From the NCBI RefSeq assembly GCF_024752355.1, contig NZ_JANTHZ010000006.1:1-64000 (forward strand): a stretch of DNA of 64,000 bases. Reading direction: 5' to 3'. Positions 47,117-53,485 of the stretch are shown piece after piece (position 1 is the stretch's first letter; the number at the start of each line of letters is the position of its first letter). Both the position numbers and the translations under genes were made by a program. The notes beneath the pieces are model-generated. The model made no database searches and had not been told where the DNA came from. It saw nothing but the letters and a program-made list of their open reading frames with translations. Source of the stretch: Ancylobacter mangrovi. Lineage in GTDB: Bacteria; Pseudomonadota; Alphaproteobacteria; Rhizobiales; Xanthobacteraceae.

Positions 47117-49693
47117 TCAGGACGCTTCGAGCAGCGCCCGCAGCGCGGTGAGCAGCGTTCCGCTCTCATAGGGCTTGGGCAGTACCATCGCGTCCTGGTG
47201 CCCGTCCGGGATCATCGACTGGTCGCCATAGCCGGTGGCGAAGAGGTAGGGAACGCCGCGCCGGCGCAGTTCCTCGGCCACCGGCGCGGAGTTGCGCGTG
47301 CCCAGATTGACGTCGAGCACGGCGACGTCGGGCGTCAGCCCTTCGAGCTTGCGCAGCGCCTCGTTCACCGAGGCGGCGGTGACCACCGAGCCGACGCCGC
47401 CCTCCAGCATCATCGCCTCGACGTCGAGCGCGATGATCATCTGGTCCTCCACCAGCAGCACCGCGCAATCGGACAGCACGTCGCTCTCCCCCGCCGCGGC
47501 CTCGGTGCCGGCCGCCGTGCCGGCCTCCTCGACCGGCGCGACCGCGACGATGTGCTGGGCCGGCAGGCGGAAGCGGGCGACGAGCCCGCTCGGCACGAGA
47601 TCGATCGTCGCGTCGCCGTCGAGGTCGTGCGGCACGCTGCGCTCGATCAGCGCCGAGCCGAAGCCGCGCCGGCCGGTGTCGACGACCGTCGGCCCGCCAT
47701 GCTCGCGCCAGTCCACCGTGCAATCGCCATTCGGCTCGATCTTCCAGCTCACCTCGACCCGGCCTTCCGAACGCGACAGCGCGCCGTATTTGGCGGCATT
47801 GGTGGCCAGCTCGTGCAGCACCAGCGCCATGACCGAGAAGGCCCGCGCGTCGAGCCGCACGCCGGGGCCGTCCAGCCGCGTGCGCGCGCCGCCGCCATAG
47901 GGCGACAGCTCGGCGCCCAGCAGCTCGGCGAGCGCCCCGCCGCCGGCACCGCGCACGACCTGGTCATGGGCGACGGCGAGCGCCTGGATCCGCCCGCGCA
48001 GCGAATCGACATAATCGGTGATGTCGCGGCCGTCCTGCATCGAGTGCTCGACCAGCGACTTGATGACGGCGAGGATGTTCTTGACCCGGTGGTTGAGCTC
48101 CTCGTTGAGCATGCGCTGGCGGATGTCGGCCTTCTCGCGCTCCTCGGCCATCATCTCGTTGTGGCGCAGCACGGTCTCGACCAGGGCCGAGCGGGTTGCC
48201 TCGGCAATCTCGCGGTCGGCGTCGGTCCACGGGCTGGCGTGCTGGCGCACCGTTTCCTTCCAGATCGCGAAGCTCTTGCGCGGCGTCAGCCGGTCGCCGA
48301 AGGGGCCGGTCTCGTAGACCTTCTCCGGCCGGCCCGCCCAGTCCAGCGTCTGCGCCACCTCGCGGCGGAAGAACAGCAGGTAGTCGCGCGGAAGCTGGGA
48401 CAGCGGCAGGGCCAGCATGCCCGACGCCTCCTCGCTGAAGGCGGCGGCCGGCTCCCAGGCCCGCGCGAGCGAGTCCGTCGTCCAGATCTTGCCTTCGGCC
48501 GGCCCGTCGATCATGCGCGCGGGGCGCGTCACCATGGCGCCGAGAAGGCCGGGAATGGCATCGGCCGGCGGCACGCAGCCCTGCGCGGTCCACACGCCGC
48601 CCAGCCACAGCCCGATGCCGTCGCACGGCATGAGCGCGGCGAACTCGGAGAGGTTGCTGCGCAGCAGATCGAGCACGTCCTCGGTGCGCGAGGCGCGCTG
48701 CAGGAAGCGGTCCAGCGCCCGCCGGGCCTCGGTCGCGACCTGGAGCGAACGCTTCTGCTTCAGCGCCTGCAGGTGCAGCGAGAAGAAGGAGCCGAACATC
48801 TCCGCCGCGACGCGCTCGGTCATCGGCAGCACGCGCGGGGCGTAGTGGTGGCACGCGATCATGCCCCAGAGCTCGCCGTCGACCACCACCGAGATCGACA
48901 TCGACGCCGCGACGCCCATGTTGCGCAGATATTCGAGATGGATCGGCGAGACCGAGCGCAGATGCGCGAAGGACAGGTCCAGCTGCCGGCCGGCGGGGTC
49001 CCGCTCCGGCTCGATGGTGCAACGCGTGGCGTGCACGTCGCCGATGACGCGGACGATGTTGCGCAGATAGAGCCGGCGTGCCTGCTGCGGGATGTCGCTC
49101 TCGGGAAACCACTGGCCGAGGAAGCTCTCGAGGTCCTCGCGGCGCGCCTCGCTCACCACCTGCCCCGCGCCGTCATGGGCGAAGCGGTAGACCATCACCC
49201 GGTCATAGCCGAGCATGTCGCGCACGAGCCTGGCGGCGACCTCCACCAGCTCGTCGATGTCGGTAAGGCCGCGCACCCGCGCCAGCATGCCGCGCGCATG
49301 GTCGAGCGCCAGCCCGTCGTCGCCGGCGGCCGGCTCGAACTCGAAGATCGCGGCGCCGTCATAGCGGTGGACGGCGACGTCGAAGCGCCGCCCGCCAGCG
49401 ACCGTCACGCCGAACAGCAGCACCGGCGCGGTCGGCTCGTCCGCGCGCCCGAGCGCCTCGCGCAATTGCCCGGCCGCCTCGGCTCCGAGCAGCGCCTCGA
49501 GCCGCTGGCCGAGCACCGGCCCGTCCTCAGCGCGCAGCATGCCCGCGGCATTTTCCGAGCAGCGCTCGACACTCTCGCCCGCCTCGTCGCAGGCGAGCAG
49601 GCAGCCATGGCACTGGATGCTACCGGGAACGTGGATCGGCTCGCGATCGCAGTTCGAAAGATTGACGCTCTCGGGGCTCAGCACTTCGGGCAC
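47117..49693 (-). CDS. Bacteriophytochrome hybrid kinase (PAS-GAF-PHY-HWE kinase-REC)
   Basis: An 858-residue red/far-red sensor. The biliverdin-binding cysteine fits Cys15 in SNCDREPIH. The PAS/GAF/PHY core spans about 18-505 and contains the PASDIP-like PESDIP (197-202, Asp200), CHHY (281-284) and the PHY tongue PRKSF (471-475). The kinase is HWE type, with His535 in ELNHRVKN and HELATNAAKYGAL in the ATPase part. A C-terminal receiver domain has Asp750, phosphoacceptor Asp794, Thr820 and Lys840. The start is GTG at 49693. Residues 28-35 read CHGCLLAC where most homologues have a proline at position 28; no heme oxygenase gene is linked. Confidence 0.94.
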   Translation of the reverse strand: MPEVLSPESVNLSNCDREPIHVPGSIQCHGCLLACDEAGESVERCSENAAGMLRAEDGPVLGQRLEALLGAEAAGQLREALGRADEPTAPVLLFGVTVAGGRRFDVAVHRYDGAAIFEFEPAAGDDGLALDHARGMLARVRGLTDIDELVEVAARLVRDMLGYDRVMVYRFAHDGAGQVVSEARREDLESFLGQWFPESDIPQQARRLYLRNIVRVIGDVHATRCTIEPERDPAGRQLDLSFAHLRSVSPIHLEYLRNMGVAASMSISVVVDGELWGMIACHHYAPRVLPMTERVAAEMFGSFFSLHLQALKQKRSLQVATEARRALDRFLQRASRTEDVLDLLRSNLSEFAALMPCDGIGLWLGGVWTAQGCVPPADAIPGLLGAMVTRPARMIDGPAEGKIWTTDSLARAWEPAAAFSEEASGMLALPLSQLPRDYLLFFRREVAQTLDWAGRPEKVYETGPFGDRLTPRKSFAIWKETVRQHASPWTDADREIAEATRSALVETVLRHNEMMAEEREKADIRQRMLNEELNHRVKNILAVIKSLVEHSMQDGRDITDYVDSLRGRIQALAVAHDQVVRGAGGGALAELLGAELSPYGGGARTRLDGPGVRLDARAFSVMALVLHELATNAAKYGALSRSEGRVEVSWKIEPNGDCTVDWREHGGPTVVDTGRRGFGSALIERSVPHDLDGDATIDLVPSGLVARFRLPAQHIVAVAPVEEAGTAAGTEAAAGESDVLSDCAVLLVEDQMIIALDVEAMMLEGGVGSVVTAASVNEALRKLEGLTPDVAVLDVNLGTRNSAPVAEELRRRGVPYLFATGYGDQSMIPDGHQDAMVLPKPYESGTLLTALRALLEAS

Positions 49694-49893: not shown

Positions 49894-51462
49894 TCAGTGC
49901 CCGCCCCCACCGCCGCCGACATGGGACGGCCGGCGCATCAGCGGCGCGAAGACGACCAGCGCCAGGAACAGGAAGGTGAGCAGGTAGAACACGTCGGCGA
50001 AGGACATCACCAGCGCCTCGCGCCGCACCATCGCCGCCATCTGCCTGAGCGCGGCGCTGTCCGCGTCCGAGCCGAAGCTGGCGAAGGCGTTCGTCATCGA
50101 GTCGAGCCGCTCCATCGCCGCGCTGCTCGCCCACTGCACCTGCTCGTGCAGGCGCGCCAGATGCAGGTCCCAGCGGTCGTTGAGCACGGTGTTGATGAGG
50201 GCGAGCCCCACCGCGCCGCCGAGATTGCGCATCAGGTTGAACAGACCAGAGGCGTTCTTGATCTGCGAGGGGTGGAGCGTGCCGAGCGACAGGTTGGTGA
50301 TCGGGATCATCGCCATCATCAGCGAGACGCCGCGCAGGATCTGCGGCACCAAAAGTTCCCAGAAGTCCCAGTCCTTGGTCAGCCCCGTCACCCGCCACGT
50401 GCCGAGCGCGAAACCGGCGAAGGCGATGCCGATCATCAGGCGCGGGTCGACGCGGGTCATCAGCCGGCCGGCGAGCGGCGCGGTGACGAACATGGCGATG
50501 CCGGTGACGAACATGGTCTCGCCGATCATCAGCGCCGAGTAGCCGCGCACCCAGCTCAGATAGATCGGATAGAGATAGGTCAGCCCGTAGAGCCCAATGC
50601 CGAGTACGAAGCTGAAGGCCGAGCCGGTCGCGAAGTTGCGGTTCTGGAACGCGCGTATGTCGACCACCGGCTCGCGCGCGGTCAGCACCCGCAGGAAGAA
50701 GGCGATGCCGGAGACCACGCCGACGATGGCGAAGTAGAAGATGGTCTCGTCGTCGAACCAGTCATTGGTCGGCCCTTCCTCAAGCACGAACTCCATGCTG
50801 CCGAGGAAGCCGGCCATGAACAGCAGGCCCCACCAGTCGAAGCGGTCGAGCAAGGCGAGGTCGGGCTCGTCGAAGTCGATCAGCGTCACCGAGGTGATGA
50901 TGACGAAGATGCCCGGGACGATGTTCACCAGGAACAGCCAGTGCCAGGAGAACAGGTCGGTGAGATAGCCGCCGATGGTCGGGCCGATCGTCGGCGCCAG
51001 CGTCGCCACCAGGCCGATCATCGGCGTGACGATGGGCTGCTTCTCGCGCGGGAAAACGGCATAGGCGGAGGCGAAGACGGTCGGGATCATGCCGCCGCCG
51101 AGGAAGCCCTGCAGCGCCCGGTAGACGATCATCTGGTCGATCGAGTTCGCCGTCGCGCACATGAAGCTCATGACGGTGAAGCCGGTCGCCGAGGCGACGA
51201 ACAGCCACCGCGTCGAGAGCGCCCGCGACAGGAAGCCCGAGAGCGGGATCATCACCACCTCGGCGATGAGGTAGCTGGTCTGCACCCACGAAATTTCGTC
51301 CGACGAGGCGGCGAGCCCCGCCTGGATCTCCGAGAGCGAGGCCGAGACGATCTGGATGTCCAGAATCGCCATGAACATGCCGAACACCATGCAGAGAAAG
51401 GCGATCATGCGCCTCGTCTCCACGGAGTGGCCGGCGCCGCCGGCCGTCACTGTCTCGGCCAT
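49894..51462 (-). CDS. EmrB-type MFS multidrug exporter (DHA2 family), system 2
   Basis: A 522-residue protein with about 14 membrane helices; MFMAILDIQIVSASLSEI (helix 1), LIAEVVMIPLSGFLSRALSTRWLF and GPTIGGYLTD are family marks. It follows its adaptor by 16 bases in the TetR-regulated unit and has GGGAGGG before the ATG at 51462. The protein ends in a run of six glycines and a histidine, which is unusual and may be flexible or bind metal. It should export drugs through the adaptor and an unlinked TolC-like channel. Confidence 0.92.
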   Translation of the reverse strand: MAETVTAGGAGHSVETRRMIAFLCMVFGMFMAILDIQIVSASLSEIQAGLAASSDEISWVQTSYLIAEVVMIPLSGFLSRALSTRWLFVASATGFTVMSFMCATANSIDQMIVYRALQGFLGGGMIPTVFASAYAVFPREKQPIVTPMIGLVATLAPTIGPTIGGYLTDLFSWHWLFLVNIVPGIFVIITSVTLIDFDEPDLALLDRFDWWGLLFMAGFLGSMEFVLEEGPTNDWFDDETIFYFAIVGVVSGIAFFLRVLTAREPVVDIRAFQNRNFATGSAFSFVLGIGLYGLTYLYPIYLSWVRGYSALMIGETMFVTGIAMFVTAPLAGRLMTRVDPRLMIGIAFAGFALGTWRVTGLTKDWDFWELLVPQILRGVSLMMAMIPITNLSLGTLHPSQIKNASGLFNLMRNLGGAVGLALINTVLNDRWDLHLARLHEQVQWASSAAMERLDSMTNAFASFGSDADSAALRQMAAMVRREALVMSFADVFYLLTFLFLALVVFAPLMRRPSHVGGGGGGH

Positions 51463-51478
51463 GGCCGCGCCCTCCCGC

Positions 51479-52699
51479 TCAGTTGCCCGTGCCCTCGCCG
51501 GCGTGCGCCCCACCCGTACGGGCGTCGCCCGTGCGCGTGTCGACGACGGCGGTGACGGACATGCCCGGGCGCAGCTCGGACTTGGCGAGCGCAGAGGCGT
51601 CGAGGGCGATGCGCACCGGCACGCGCTGCACGATCTTGGTGAAGTTGCCGGTCGCGTTCTCCGGCGGCAACAGGCTGAACACAGAGCCCGAGGCCGGCGA
51701 GACGCTGGTGACGGTGCCCTGGAAGTCCTCGTCCGGGTAGGCGTCGACCTCGACACGCACCTTCTGGCCCGGCTTCAGCCGGCCGAGCTGCGTCTCCTTG
51801 AAGTTCGCGTCGACATAGACCGCATCGAGCGGCACGATCGCCGCCAGCCGCGTGCCGGCCTGCACGAGCTGGCCGACCTGGACGGCGCGGTTGCCGACCA
51901 CGCCGTCGACGGGGGCGTGGACCACGGTGAAGTCGAGATTGCGCTGCGCCTGGTCGCGGGCGGTGCGGTTCTCGTCCAGCACGCGGCCGGCCTCGGTGCG
52001 CTGGGCCTGCAGCACGGCGACGTTGGCCTGCGCCGAAGCGACCGCCGCCCGACCGGCCTCGACATTGGCCTGCGCCTTGTCCCGATCGGCGCGCGCATTG
52101 TCGAGCGCGGAACGGCTGGCGAAATTCTGCTGGGCGAGCTTGTCCTGCCGGTCGAACTCCAGCTTGGTACGGGCGAGTTCGGCCTCGCTGGCGGTGAGCT
52201 GCGCCTTGGCCTGGTCGACCGCCCGCTCGGCGGCGCGGATCTGCTCGTCATAGCTGCCGAGCACGGCCTGCTGGGTGGCGATCTTGTCCGCGGCCGCGCG
52301 CAGGGCGAGCGTGTAGTCGCCGTCGTCGATGCGGGCGATGACGTCGCCGGCCTTGACCGGCTGATTCGTGTCGACGTCGACGCTCACCACATAGCCGGAG
52401 ATCTTGGCGGCGAGGACGGTCGTGTCCGCGCCGACATAGGCGTCGTCGGTGGAAACCTCGAAGCGGCCCACCTGCCACCAGTGAAGGCCGTAATAGCCCC
52501 CGCCCGCGAGCGCGGCGAGCAGCAGCGCGCCGAACACCAGCGGCCGGCGCGAGCGGCGCCGGCGCGGCGTCGGCGTGGACGCGGCAACCGCTTCCGCCGG
52601 CTGCTGTTCCGGCTTCTTCAGTAGAGTGAGCGCCACCGGCCCGGTGGGCACCTCCTGCGTGCGACCGGCGGCCTCTGCCGCCTTGCTGGCTTCTGCCAT
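51479..52699 (-). CDS. EmrA/HlyD-type membrane fusion protein, system 2
   Basis: A 406-residue adaptor with an Ala/Arg-rich cytoplasmic N-terminus, one membrane helix (about 53-72, ending in YYGLHWW), the VSTDDAYVGAD motif, lipoyl halves and a long coiled hairpin rich in Ala/Gln/Asp, and a C-terminal Thr/Gly tail. The ATG at 52699 is preferred over a start at 52723 because AAAGGGG lies just upstream. It is the first gene after the divergent TetR promoter region and is co-transcribed with the MFS exporter. Confidence 0.92.
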   Translation of the reverse strand: MAEASKAAEAAGRTQEVPTGPVALTLLKKPEQQPAEAVAASTPTPRRRRSRRPLVFGALLLAALAGGGYYGLHWWQVGRFEVSTDDAYVGADTTVLAAKISGYVVSVDVDTNQPVKAGDVIARIDDGDYTLALRAAADKIATQQAVLGSYDEQIRAAERAVDQAKAQLTASEAELARTKLEFDRQDKLAQQNFASRSALDNARADRDKAQANVEAGRAAVASAQANVAVLQAQRTEAGRVLDENRTARDQAQRNLDFTVVHAPVDGVVGNRAVQVGQLVQAGTRLAAIVPLDAVYVDANFKETQLGRLKPGQKVRVEVDAYPDEDFQGTVTSVSPASGSVFSLLPPENATGNFTKIVQRVPVRIALDASALAKSELRPGMSVTAVVDTRTGDARTGGAHAGEGTGN

Positions 52700-52722
52700 G
52701 CGCCGCCCCTTTCGCATAAACA

Positions 52723-52772
52723 TTGACTGAACCGTTCAGTTGTCTATATAGCAAACTAAACCGTTCAGTCAA
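52723..52772. promoter_or_regulatory. Symmetric divergent promoter with two TetR operators
   Basis: TTGACT (52723-52728) and its reverse complement AGTCAA (52767-52772) flank a shared, self-complementary TATATA (52745-52750) with exactly 16 bases on each side, giving one -35/-10 pair on each strand. A perfect 15-base dyad ACTGAACCGTTCAGT (52726-52740) and a one-mismatch copy ACTAAACCGTTCAGT (52755-52769) lie over the two -35 boxes, 29 bases apart. A repressor bound at both would block both promoters. The TetR gene (plus) and the pump genes (minus) diverge from here. Confidence 0.88.
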
Positions 52773-52825
52773 ATCCTTTGACAAGCGGGTCGCATGCGAC
52801 CTATGGAGTATGAAACGAGGACAAC

Positions 52826-53485
52826 ATGACAAGCACCGCGCGCACCATGCCCGTCACTGCGCCGGGCCGTTCCGACGCCGAACCTGCCAAGCGCCGCGAG
52901 ATCCTCGACGGCGCTCGCCACGTCTTCTTCGAGAAGGGGTTCGACGGCGCCAGCATGGATGAGGTAGCGCGCGTCGCGGGCGTCTCCAAGGCGACGATCT
53001 ACGTTTATTTCGGCAGCAAGGAAGACCTGTTCGAGGCGCTGGTCCAGGTCGATCGCGCCCGCTCGGCCGAGCACCTGTTCGAGGTCGGCGAGGGCGACGC
53101 GGACGCGGCCACCGTGCTGCGGCGCATCGGCGTGTCCTTCATGACGATGATGGTGCGCCCGGACCATATCCGGCTGGTGCGCATGGTGATCGGCGTCGCC
53201 GAGAAGTTCCCCCGCATCGGCCAGACCTTCTTCAACGACGGCCCCTGCCTCGGCGGGCGCCGGCTGGCCGAGCTGCTGGAGCGGCAGACCTTGGCCGGCG
53301 CGCTGGCGGTCAGCGACTACGAGACGGCCGCCTTCCAGTTCCTCAATCTGTGCCAGGGCAACATCGTCAAGGGGCTGATGTTCGGCAGCGACCCGACGCC
53401 GGTGCCCGAGATGATCGAGAAGACGGTCGACGGCGCGGTGAAGGTGTTCCTCGCCGCCTACGGCACAGAGACCTCCGGGAGCTAA
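52826..53485 (+). CDS. TetR/AcrR-family repressor of efflux system 2
   Basis: A 219-residue TetR protein: HTH at about 43-63 (MDEVARVAGVSKATIYVYFGSK) and a helical ligand-binding domain, with a TetR_C-like region around FMTMMVRPDHIRLVRMVIGVAEKFP. The ATG follows GAGGACA. It is divergent from the EmrAB-type pump and separated by the symmetric operator region, so it almost certainly controls its own gene and the pump. The ligand is unknown. Confidence 0.95.
   Translation: MTSTARTMPVTAPGRSDAEPAKRREILDGARHVFFEKGFDGASMDEVARVAGVSKATIYVYFGSKEDLFEALVQVDRARSAEHLFEVGEGDADAATVLRRIGVSFMTMMVRPDHIRLVRMVIGVAEKFPRIGQTFFNDGPCLGGRRLAELLERQTLAGALAVSDYETAAFQFLNLCQGNIVKGLMFGSDPTPVPEMIEKTVDGAVKVFLAAYGTETSGS

Follow-up and report, generated by a model that had tools for sequence, protein, structure and literature searches.

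A likely TetR-controlled divergent efflux switch in Ancylobacter mangrovi with conserved putative operators and a species-specific mirror-symmetric promoter region

The 50 bp at positions 52723-52772 of the window, by which we mean the whole 64,000-nucleotide stretch of Ancylobacter mangrovi DNA analysed here, look like the control region between a drug-efflux pump operon on the minus strand and a likely repressor gene on the plus strand. Across the genus and Xanthobacter relatives, comparison of orthologous regions shows conservation of two TetR-type dyads (putative operators O1 and O2) and of a predicted pump promoter at a fixed register to O2. Most of the regions (31/39) also keep a separate TTGACA, a candidate -35 element in front of the repressor gene. 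The mirror symmetry of the region, judged by the same alignments, is specific to A. mangrovi and mostly absent in its relatives. We think it reasonably probable that the locus as a whole is a TetR-controlled divergent switch in which the repressor gene has a separate ancestral promoter, and to which a lineage-specific bidirectional start has been added. Apart from the symmetry, the locus resembles any ordinary efflux switch under TetR control.

Table 1. Features of the divergent locus in window coordinates.
Feature	Position	Strand	Remarks
EmrB-type DHA2 MFS efflux permease	49894..51462	-	predicted start ATG 51462 (MAETV...)
EmrA/HlyD-like membrane-fusion subunit	51479..52699	-	predicted start ATG 52699 (MAEAS...)
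TTGACT, plus-strand -35 of the proposed shared promoter	52723..52728	+	TTGAC here in 5/39 loci
Putative operator O1, ACTGAACCGTTCAGT	52726..52740		arms 7/7; dyad here in 39/39 with at most 2 mismatches
TATATA, -10 of the pump (minus) and possible shared -10 for plus	52745..52750		preceded on the minus strand by TGC, an extended -10
Putative operator O2, ACTAAACCGTTCAGT	52755..52769		arms 6/7; dyad here in 39/39 with at most 2 mismatches
TTGACT, -35 of the pump promoter (AGTCAA on the plus strand)	52767..52772	-	39/39, same place relative to O2
TTGACA, probable ancestral repressor -35	52778..52783	+	exact in 31/39, always exactly 5 bp past the minus -35
CTATGG, candidate -10 region for the ancestral repressor promoter	52801..52806	+	4/6 to CTATAT; predicted, variable in relatives
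TetR-family gene, AefR-like C-terminal domain	52826..53485	+	219 aa; presumed autorepressor

A profile search of the TetR-family product gives PF00440 at 70.8 bits and PF14246 at 125.3 bits, and both the TetR_N helix-turn-helix and the TetR_C_7 domains score above their cutoffs. On the minus strand the EmrA/HlyD-like adaptor comes first and the EmrB-type DHA2 permease follows. The permease scores 456.5 bits with TIGR00711 (cutoff 230.2; the scan covered 49894-51468, two codons longer than the gene as tabulated), and TIGR00998 is the top-scoring model for the adaptor at 277.1 bits, under its cutoff of 390.8 (scanned over 51479-52723). The longest open reading frame for the adaptor starts at 52723; in 29 of the 39 loci compared below, a GCCAT in the 90 bp upstream of O1 bears on the start at 52699. 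Just past the pump operon, a long minus-strand open reading frame (47117-49693) resembles, by eye, a phytochrome-type sensor histidine kinase with a receiver domain.

The region reads TTGACT-N16-TATATA-N16-AGTCAA, with a 16-bp spacer on each side, and the two 15-bp dyads have centres 29 bp apart and are mirrored exactly about the TATATA axis. The original prediction described a central TATATA, TTGACT boxes at 16 bases from it, and two dyads, one perfect and one with a single mismatch, and all of these are present where it placed them. The 50-mer agrees with its reverse complement at 42 of 50 positions, against 36 for the runner-up among the 50-mers of the window, and the TATATA is the only one within the 64 kb. 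Part of the mirror symmetry is automatic, because each dyad is nearly palindromic and the two are equidistant from a palindromic hexamer. Searching the 4.9-Mb genome for TTGAC-N17-TATATA-N17-GTCAA at up to 3 mismatches returned this site (0 mismatches) and one site with 3 mismatches, and the reversed control of the pattern, under the same threshold, gave no match. At 0 mismatches the operator consensus occurs in the genome only as O1 and O2. The rank of the 50-mer, the genome-wide uniqueness of the pattern and that of the operators together argue that the arrangement exceeds chance.

Two other roles for the dyads were considered. Relaxing the operator search to 2 mismatches brings the genome matches to four, O1 and O2 included, while the reversed control has three, and a wide regulon is rejected; the operators sit between repressor and target and are not scattered over the genome, as in a self-contained divergent TetR autorepressor locus. 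A role as RNA hairpins is held unlikely, since the dyad is imperfect in 20/39 loci at O1 and 13/39 at O2, and since the pump transcript is predicted to start downstream of O2. One of the two extra matches is a single related dyad, ACCAAACCGTTCGGT (C15:467971-467985, within locus L070), upstream of a paralogous TetR gene of the AefR-like type (43% identical) and near an open reading frame that by eye resembles a KUP potassium transporter. The two genes together suggest that the AefR-like TetR subfamily may recognise ACYRAACNGTTYRGT.

Loci for comparison were taken from genome contigs (37 loci) and from 30 genomes of the genus, that of A. mangrovi included. Orthologues with the dyads were present in 54 loci, which were kept; 15 of these duplicate another locus across the stretch compared, so that 39 are distinct, that of the window among them. 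Loci of the genus set, such as L045 and L046, match Ancylobacter loci (L006 and L007, respectively) without a difference over the stretch displayed, and the relatives thus point to Xanthobacteraceae, probably to Ancylobacter or a neighbouring genus. We left out eleven distant relatives (L029-L039), for which 400 bp of upstream sequence gave no match to the full operator pattern, and also L068 and L069, whose matches at only 42-47% identity are at the level of paralogues (L068 has one dyad with 2 mismatches). The TGA in the TetR matches of L046 and L066 falls solely at the end of the matched stretch and is an ordinary terminal stop. The TetR tree is a quick one computed without bootstrap, in which the outgroup is not cleanly one-sided (one row is misplaced) and L026 has a long branch.

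Both dyads recur in all 39 distinct regions with at most 2 mismatches, those of the Xanthobacter relatives included, and the pump promoter is conserved with them. Its -35 TTGACT is invariant, including the three C-A-A columns that lie outside the dyad; the -10 at 16 bp begins with TAT in 36/39, and TGn precedes it in 27/39, the A. mangrovi locus among them. In a scan limited to its vicinity, this conserved site is the best minus-strand promoter in every one of the 39. The pump direction is likely the stronger of the two, because its predicted extended -10 (TGCTATATA) is without counterpart in the plus direction. O1 sits at the predicted pump start in A. mangrovi; in the more widely spaced relatives it lies further downstream.

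A different picture is seen for the elements that make the region symmetric. Measured start to start, O1 and O2 are 38 bp apart in 17 loci, 39 bp in nine, 40 bp in eight, 36 bp in two, 35 bp in one and 29 bp in two. The two 29-bp loci are that of the window and its nearest relative, L041, whose protein is 85% identical, and they form a pair with SH-aLRT 99, such that one change on the TetR tree accounts for the 29-bp state; the other 37/39, including Xanthobacter, have 35-40 bp. The 29-bp gap is thus most simply derived, by a loss of about 10 bp, rather than ancestral, as read from this quick tree. An exact TATATA is found in 1/39 regions, and TTGAC at O1 in 5/39, where it is joined with a -10 of at least 4/6 in the A. 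mangrovi locus alone. In the original prediction, lack of conservation of the TATATA and both dyads among orthologues was named as counting against it: the dyads have held up and the TATATA has not. With the 29-bp spacing, the TATATA and the O1 TTGAC present in two, one and five of the 39 loci (A. mangrovi counted in each), we reject the 50-base symmetry as a conserved design.

An older, separate promoter probably serves the repressor gene, the shared -10 being a recent addition in A. mangrovi. The scan for plus-strand promoters ran from 30 bp ahead of O1 to 40 bp past the start of O2, and the best site is at the TTGACA box in 29/39, at O1 in 4/39 and elsewhere in six. It is this predominance of the TTGACA box, which is also present in the A. 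mangrovi locus, that points to the separate promoter as the older; its columns are conserved in 33-38 of the 39 loci, and for the TTGACA/CTATGG pair a start is predicted near 52814. A weakness of this reading is the variable -10 (CTATCA, CTATGC, CTATGG and others), which has at least 4 matches to TATAAT in just 12/39. Eight of the 39 have no exact TTGACA, and five of those fall below a 5/6 match. We note that L062, L064, L013, L025 and L026 keep both dyads and the pump promoter with no good TTGACA match at the repressor -35. The back-to-back arrangement, with -35 boxes 5 bp apart, suggests mutual hindrance between two polymerases at this point as well.

The alphaproteobacterial promoter consensus is given as CTTGAC-N17-CTATAT (PMC2873474). 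On its TTGAC and CTATAT positions the A. mangrovi locus matches 11/11 in both directions, at N16, a spacer one base short of the consensus. This is the top plus-strand score among the 39 loci, and with the TTGACA promoter of the same locus at 9/11, the repressor transcript of A. mangrovi could start mainly from the shared -10. At the O1 site the best plus-strand scores of the relatives are 9 in L041, 9 in L043 and 8 in L042 (tied with its TTGACA site). L042 and L043 have their best score there without a good -10; L041 has a longer plus-strand spacer and a -10 that overlaps that of the pump with a two-base offset, and weak bidirectionality may be common to this locus and that of A. mangrovi. 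The exact sharing of the -10 is seen in A. mangrovi alone, which makes a recent addition plausible. A stricter sigma-70 scan, in which T was required at position 6 of the -10, found no promoter in either direction within 52600-52900, and the -7T of the E. coli consensus is missing in both directions at TATATA. The -10 is nonetheless readable on both strands (CTATAT each way), as in bidirectional promoters, which are defined by divergent starts 7-25 bp apart and overlapping -10 elements (Warman/Grainger; PMC10268837). Starts are predicted at 52738 (minus) and 52757 (plus), 19 bp apart and inside that range.

These matches could also mean that in A. mangrovi both genes rely mainly or solely on TATATA as their -10, with the two directions competing and one repressor shutting both symmetrically. 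The full scores in both directions, the separation of the predicted starts and the TetR-family precedent of PacrA/acrR all agree with this, but the 29-bp geometry and the hexamer are not conserved, the conserved separate repressor -35 is present in this locus as well, and TGn precedes the -10 in the minus direction and not in the plus direction. We consider it rather unlikely. The original prediction held, further, that polymerases on the two strands must compete for the same -10. That necessity is undercut by the candidate TTGACA promoter, and the five E. coli bidirectional promoters tested elsewhere show little competition, their basal activity being too low for it; strong activation of one direction did cause competition (PMC12825309).

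At the other extreme, the plus-strand promoter could be accidental, TATATA serving the pump alone and the repressor gene using only the downstream TTGACA promoter; the symmetry would then come down to the near-self-palindromic form of the two operators and the self-palindromic -10, plus a TTG that precedes O1 by chance. The three columns before O1 (O1-3 to -1) are unconserved, the commonest bases being T in 16, C in 19 and A in 25 of 39, against the 33-38 of the TTGACA columns, and the rarity of TTGAC at O1 agrees with this. However, both 29-bp loci score best on the plus strand exactly at the O1 site, and a good -10 and -35 at 16 bp are expected to yield some transcription, which counts against this explanation; we regard it as improbable.

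A plausible scenario under the preferred reading, a divergent switch with a separate ancestral repressor promoter and an added bidirectional start, is as follows. A dimer of the AefR-like TetR protein would bind O2, over the pump -35 and spacer, and O1, at the pump start, and turn the pump off, and a ligand would free the dimer. The repressor gene would be transcribed from the conserved back-to-back promoter at 52778-52806. At about -59 to -45, O2 is upstream of this promoter, which may thus be only partly repressed. In A. mangrovi the gap between O1 and O2 would have shrunk by about one helical turn, from 38-40 to 29 bp, and this loss, the TTG before O1 and the palindromic TATATA would have given rise to a second, bidirectional repressor start that shares the pump -10 and could be closed by either operator. 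The pair of dyads and the divergent locus around them are real and conserved; the repression we infer, and binding of TetR to O1 and O2 is suggested by their position, by the usual habit of such loci and by their uniqueness in the genome. That a single repressor could close both directions, as originally proposed, is consistent with the sequence in that each dyad covers one -35 and the predicted start of the opposite direction: O1 lies over the plus -35 and the minus start, O2 over the minus -35 with its spacer and the plus start. Conservation of the symmetric geometry is not supported.

We hold as tentative, and somewhat doubtful, the narrower idea that a deletion of about one helical turn between the repressor sites made an ordinary pump promoter fully mirror-symmetric and bidirectional in one lineage, the sites being kept on about the same face of the DNA. 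If true, it would illustrate from nature the origin of bidirectional promoters and of symmetric double repression. The locus is a compact case in which the probable ancestral layout, with a separate repressor promoter and operators 35-40 bp apart, can be compared in close relatives with the derived symmetric one, and the gain of bidirectional transcription is thus directly testable.

In literature on EmrR/TetR and AefR operators, titles and abstract openings among the matches listed gave no description of an operator of the O1/O2 type, and a search on operator sequences gave, by title and among the matches listed, none on such a locus save for the gonococcal TetR-type repressor MtrR. The operators of Tn10 tet are spaced about 30 bp apart. 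AcrAB is an RND pump, whereas the pump here is of the MFS EmrAB type. Bidirectional promoters as such are reported to be widespread: in E. coli 19% of detected RNAs come from them, with starts mostly 18 bp apart (PMC12825309), and in Salmonella 10.7% of chromosomal starts are in divergent pairs (PMC10268837). These start maps, which count shared and overlapping -10 elements together, contradict the claim that fully shared -10 boxes are uncommon (PMC12825309, PMC10268837). The E. coli and Salmonella promoters have a near-symmetric -10 on both strands, as here, where the starts are predicted ones 19 bp apart (PMC12825309, PMC10268837).

The E. coli PacrA/acrR region is alike in that a TetR-family repressor gene is divergent from a pump operon and the -10 is partly common to both directions, and AcrR represses both RNAs in vitro (PMC12825309). 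It differs in being activated by SoxS/MarA; the A. mangrovi locus, known from its sequence, has an exactly palindromic TATATA, two separate symmetric operators and a further conserved candidate repressor promoter, unlike PacrA/acrR as described (PMC12825309). In Pseudomonas syringae the TetR-type autorepressor PmeR is likewise divergent from an efflux operon, mexAB-oprM, with two intergenic palindromic sites, but those sites overlap each other and the pump is of the RND type (PMC12421961). Tn10-type tetA/tetR shares with the present locus two operators per TetR-type repressor, overlapping promoters and operators, and two promoters for the repressor gene (PMC3037858). Its TetR subfamily and pump are different, and an exactly shared -10 is not described in the passages compared (PMC3037858). 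One repressor promoter of the tet operon is reported to stay usable when one operator is bound (PMC3037858), a parallel to the downstream repressor promoter proposed here.
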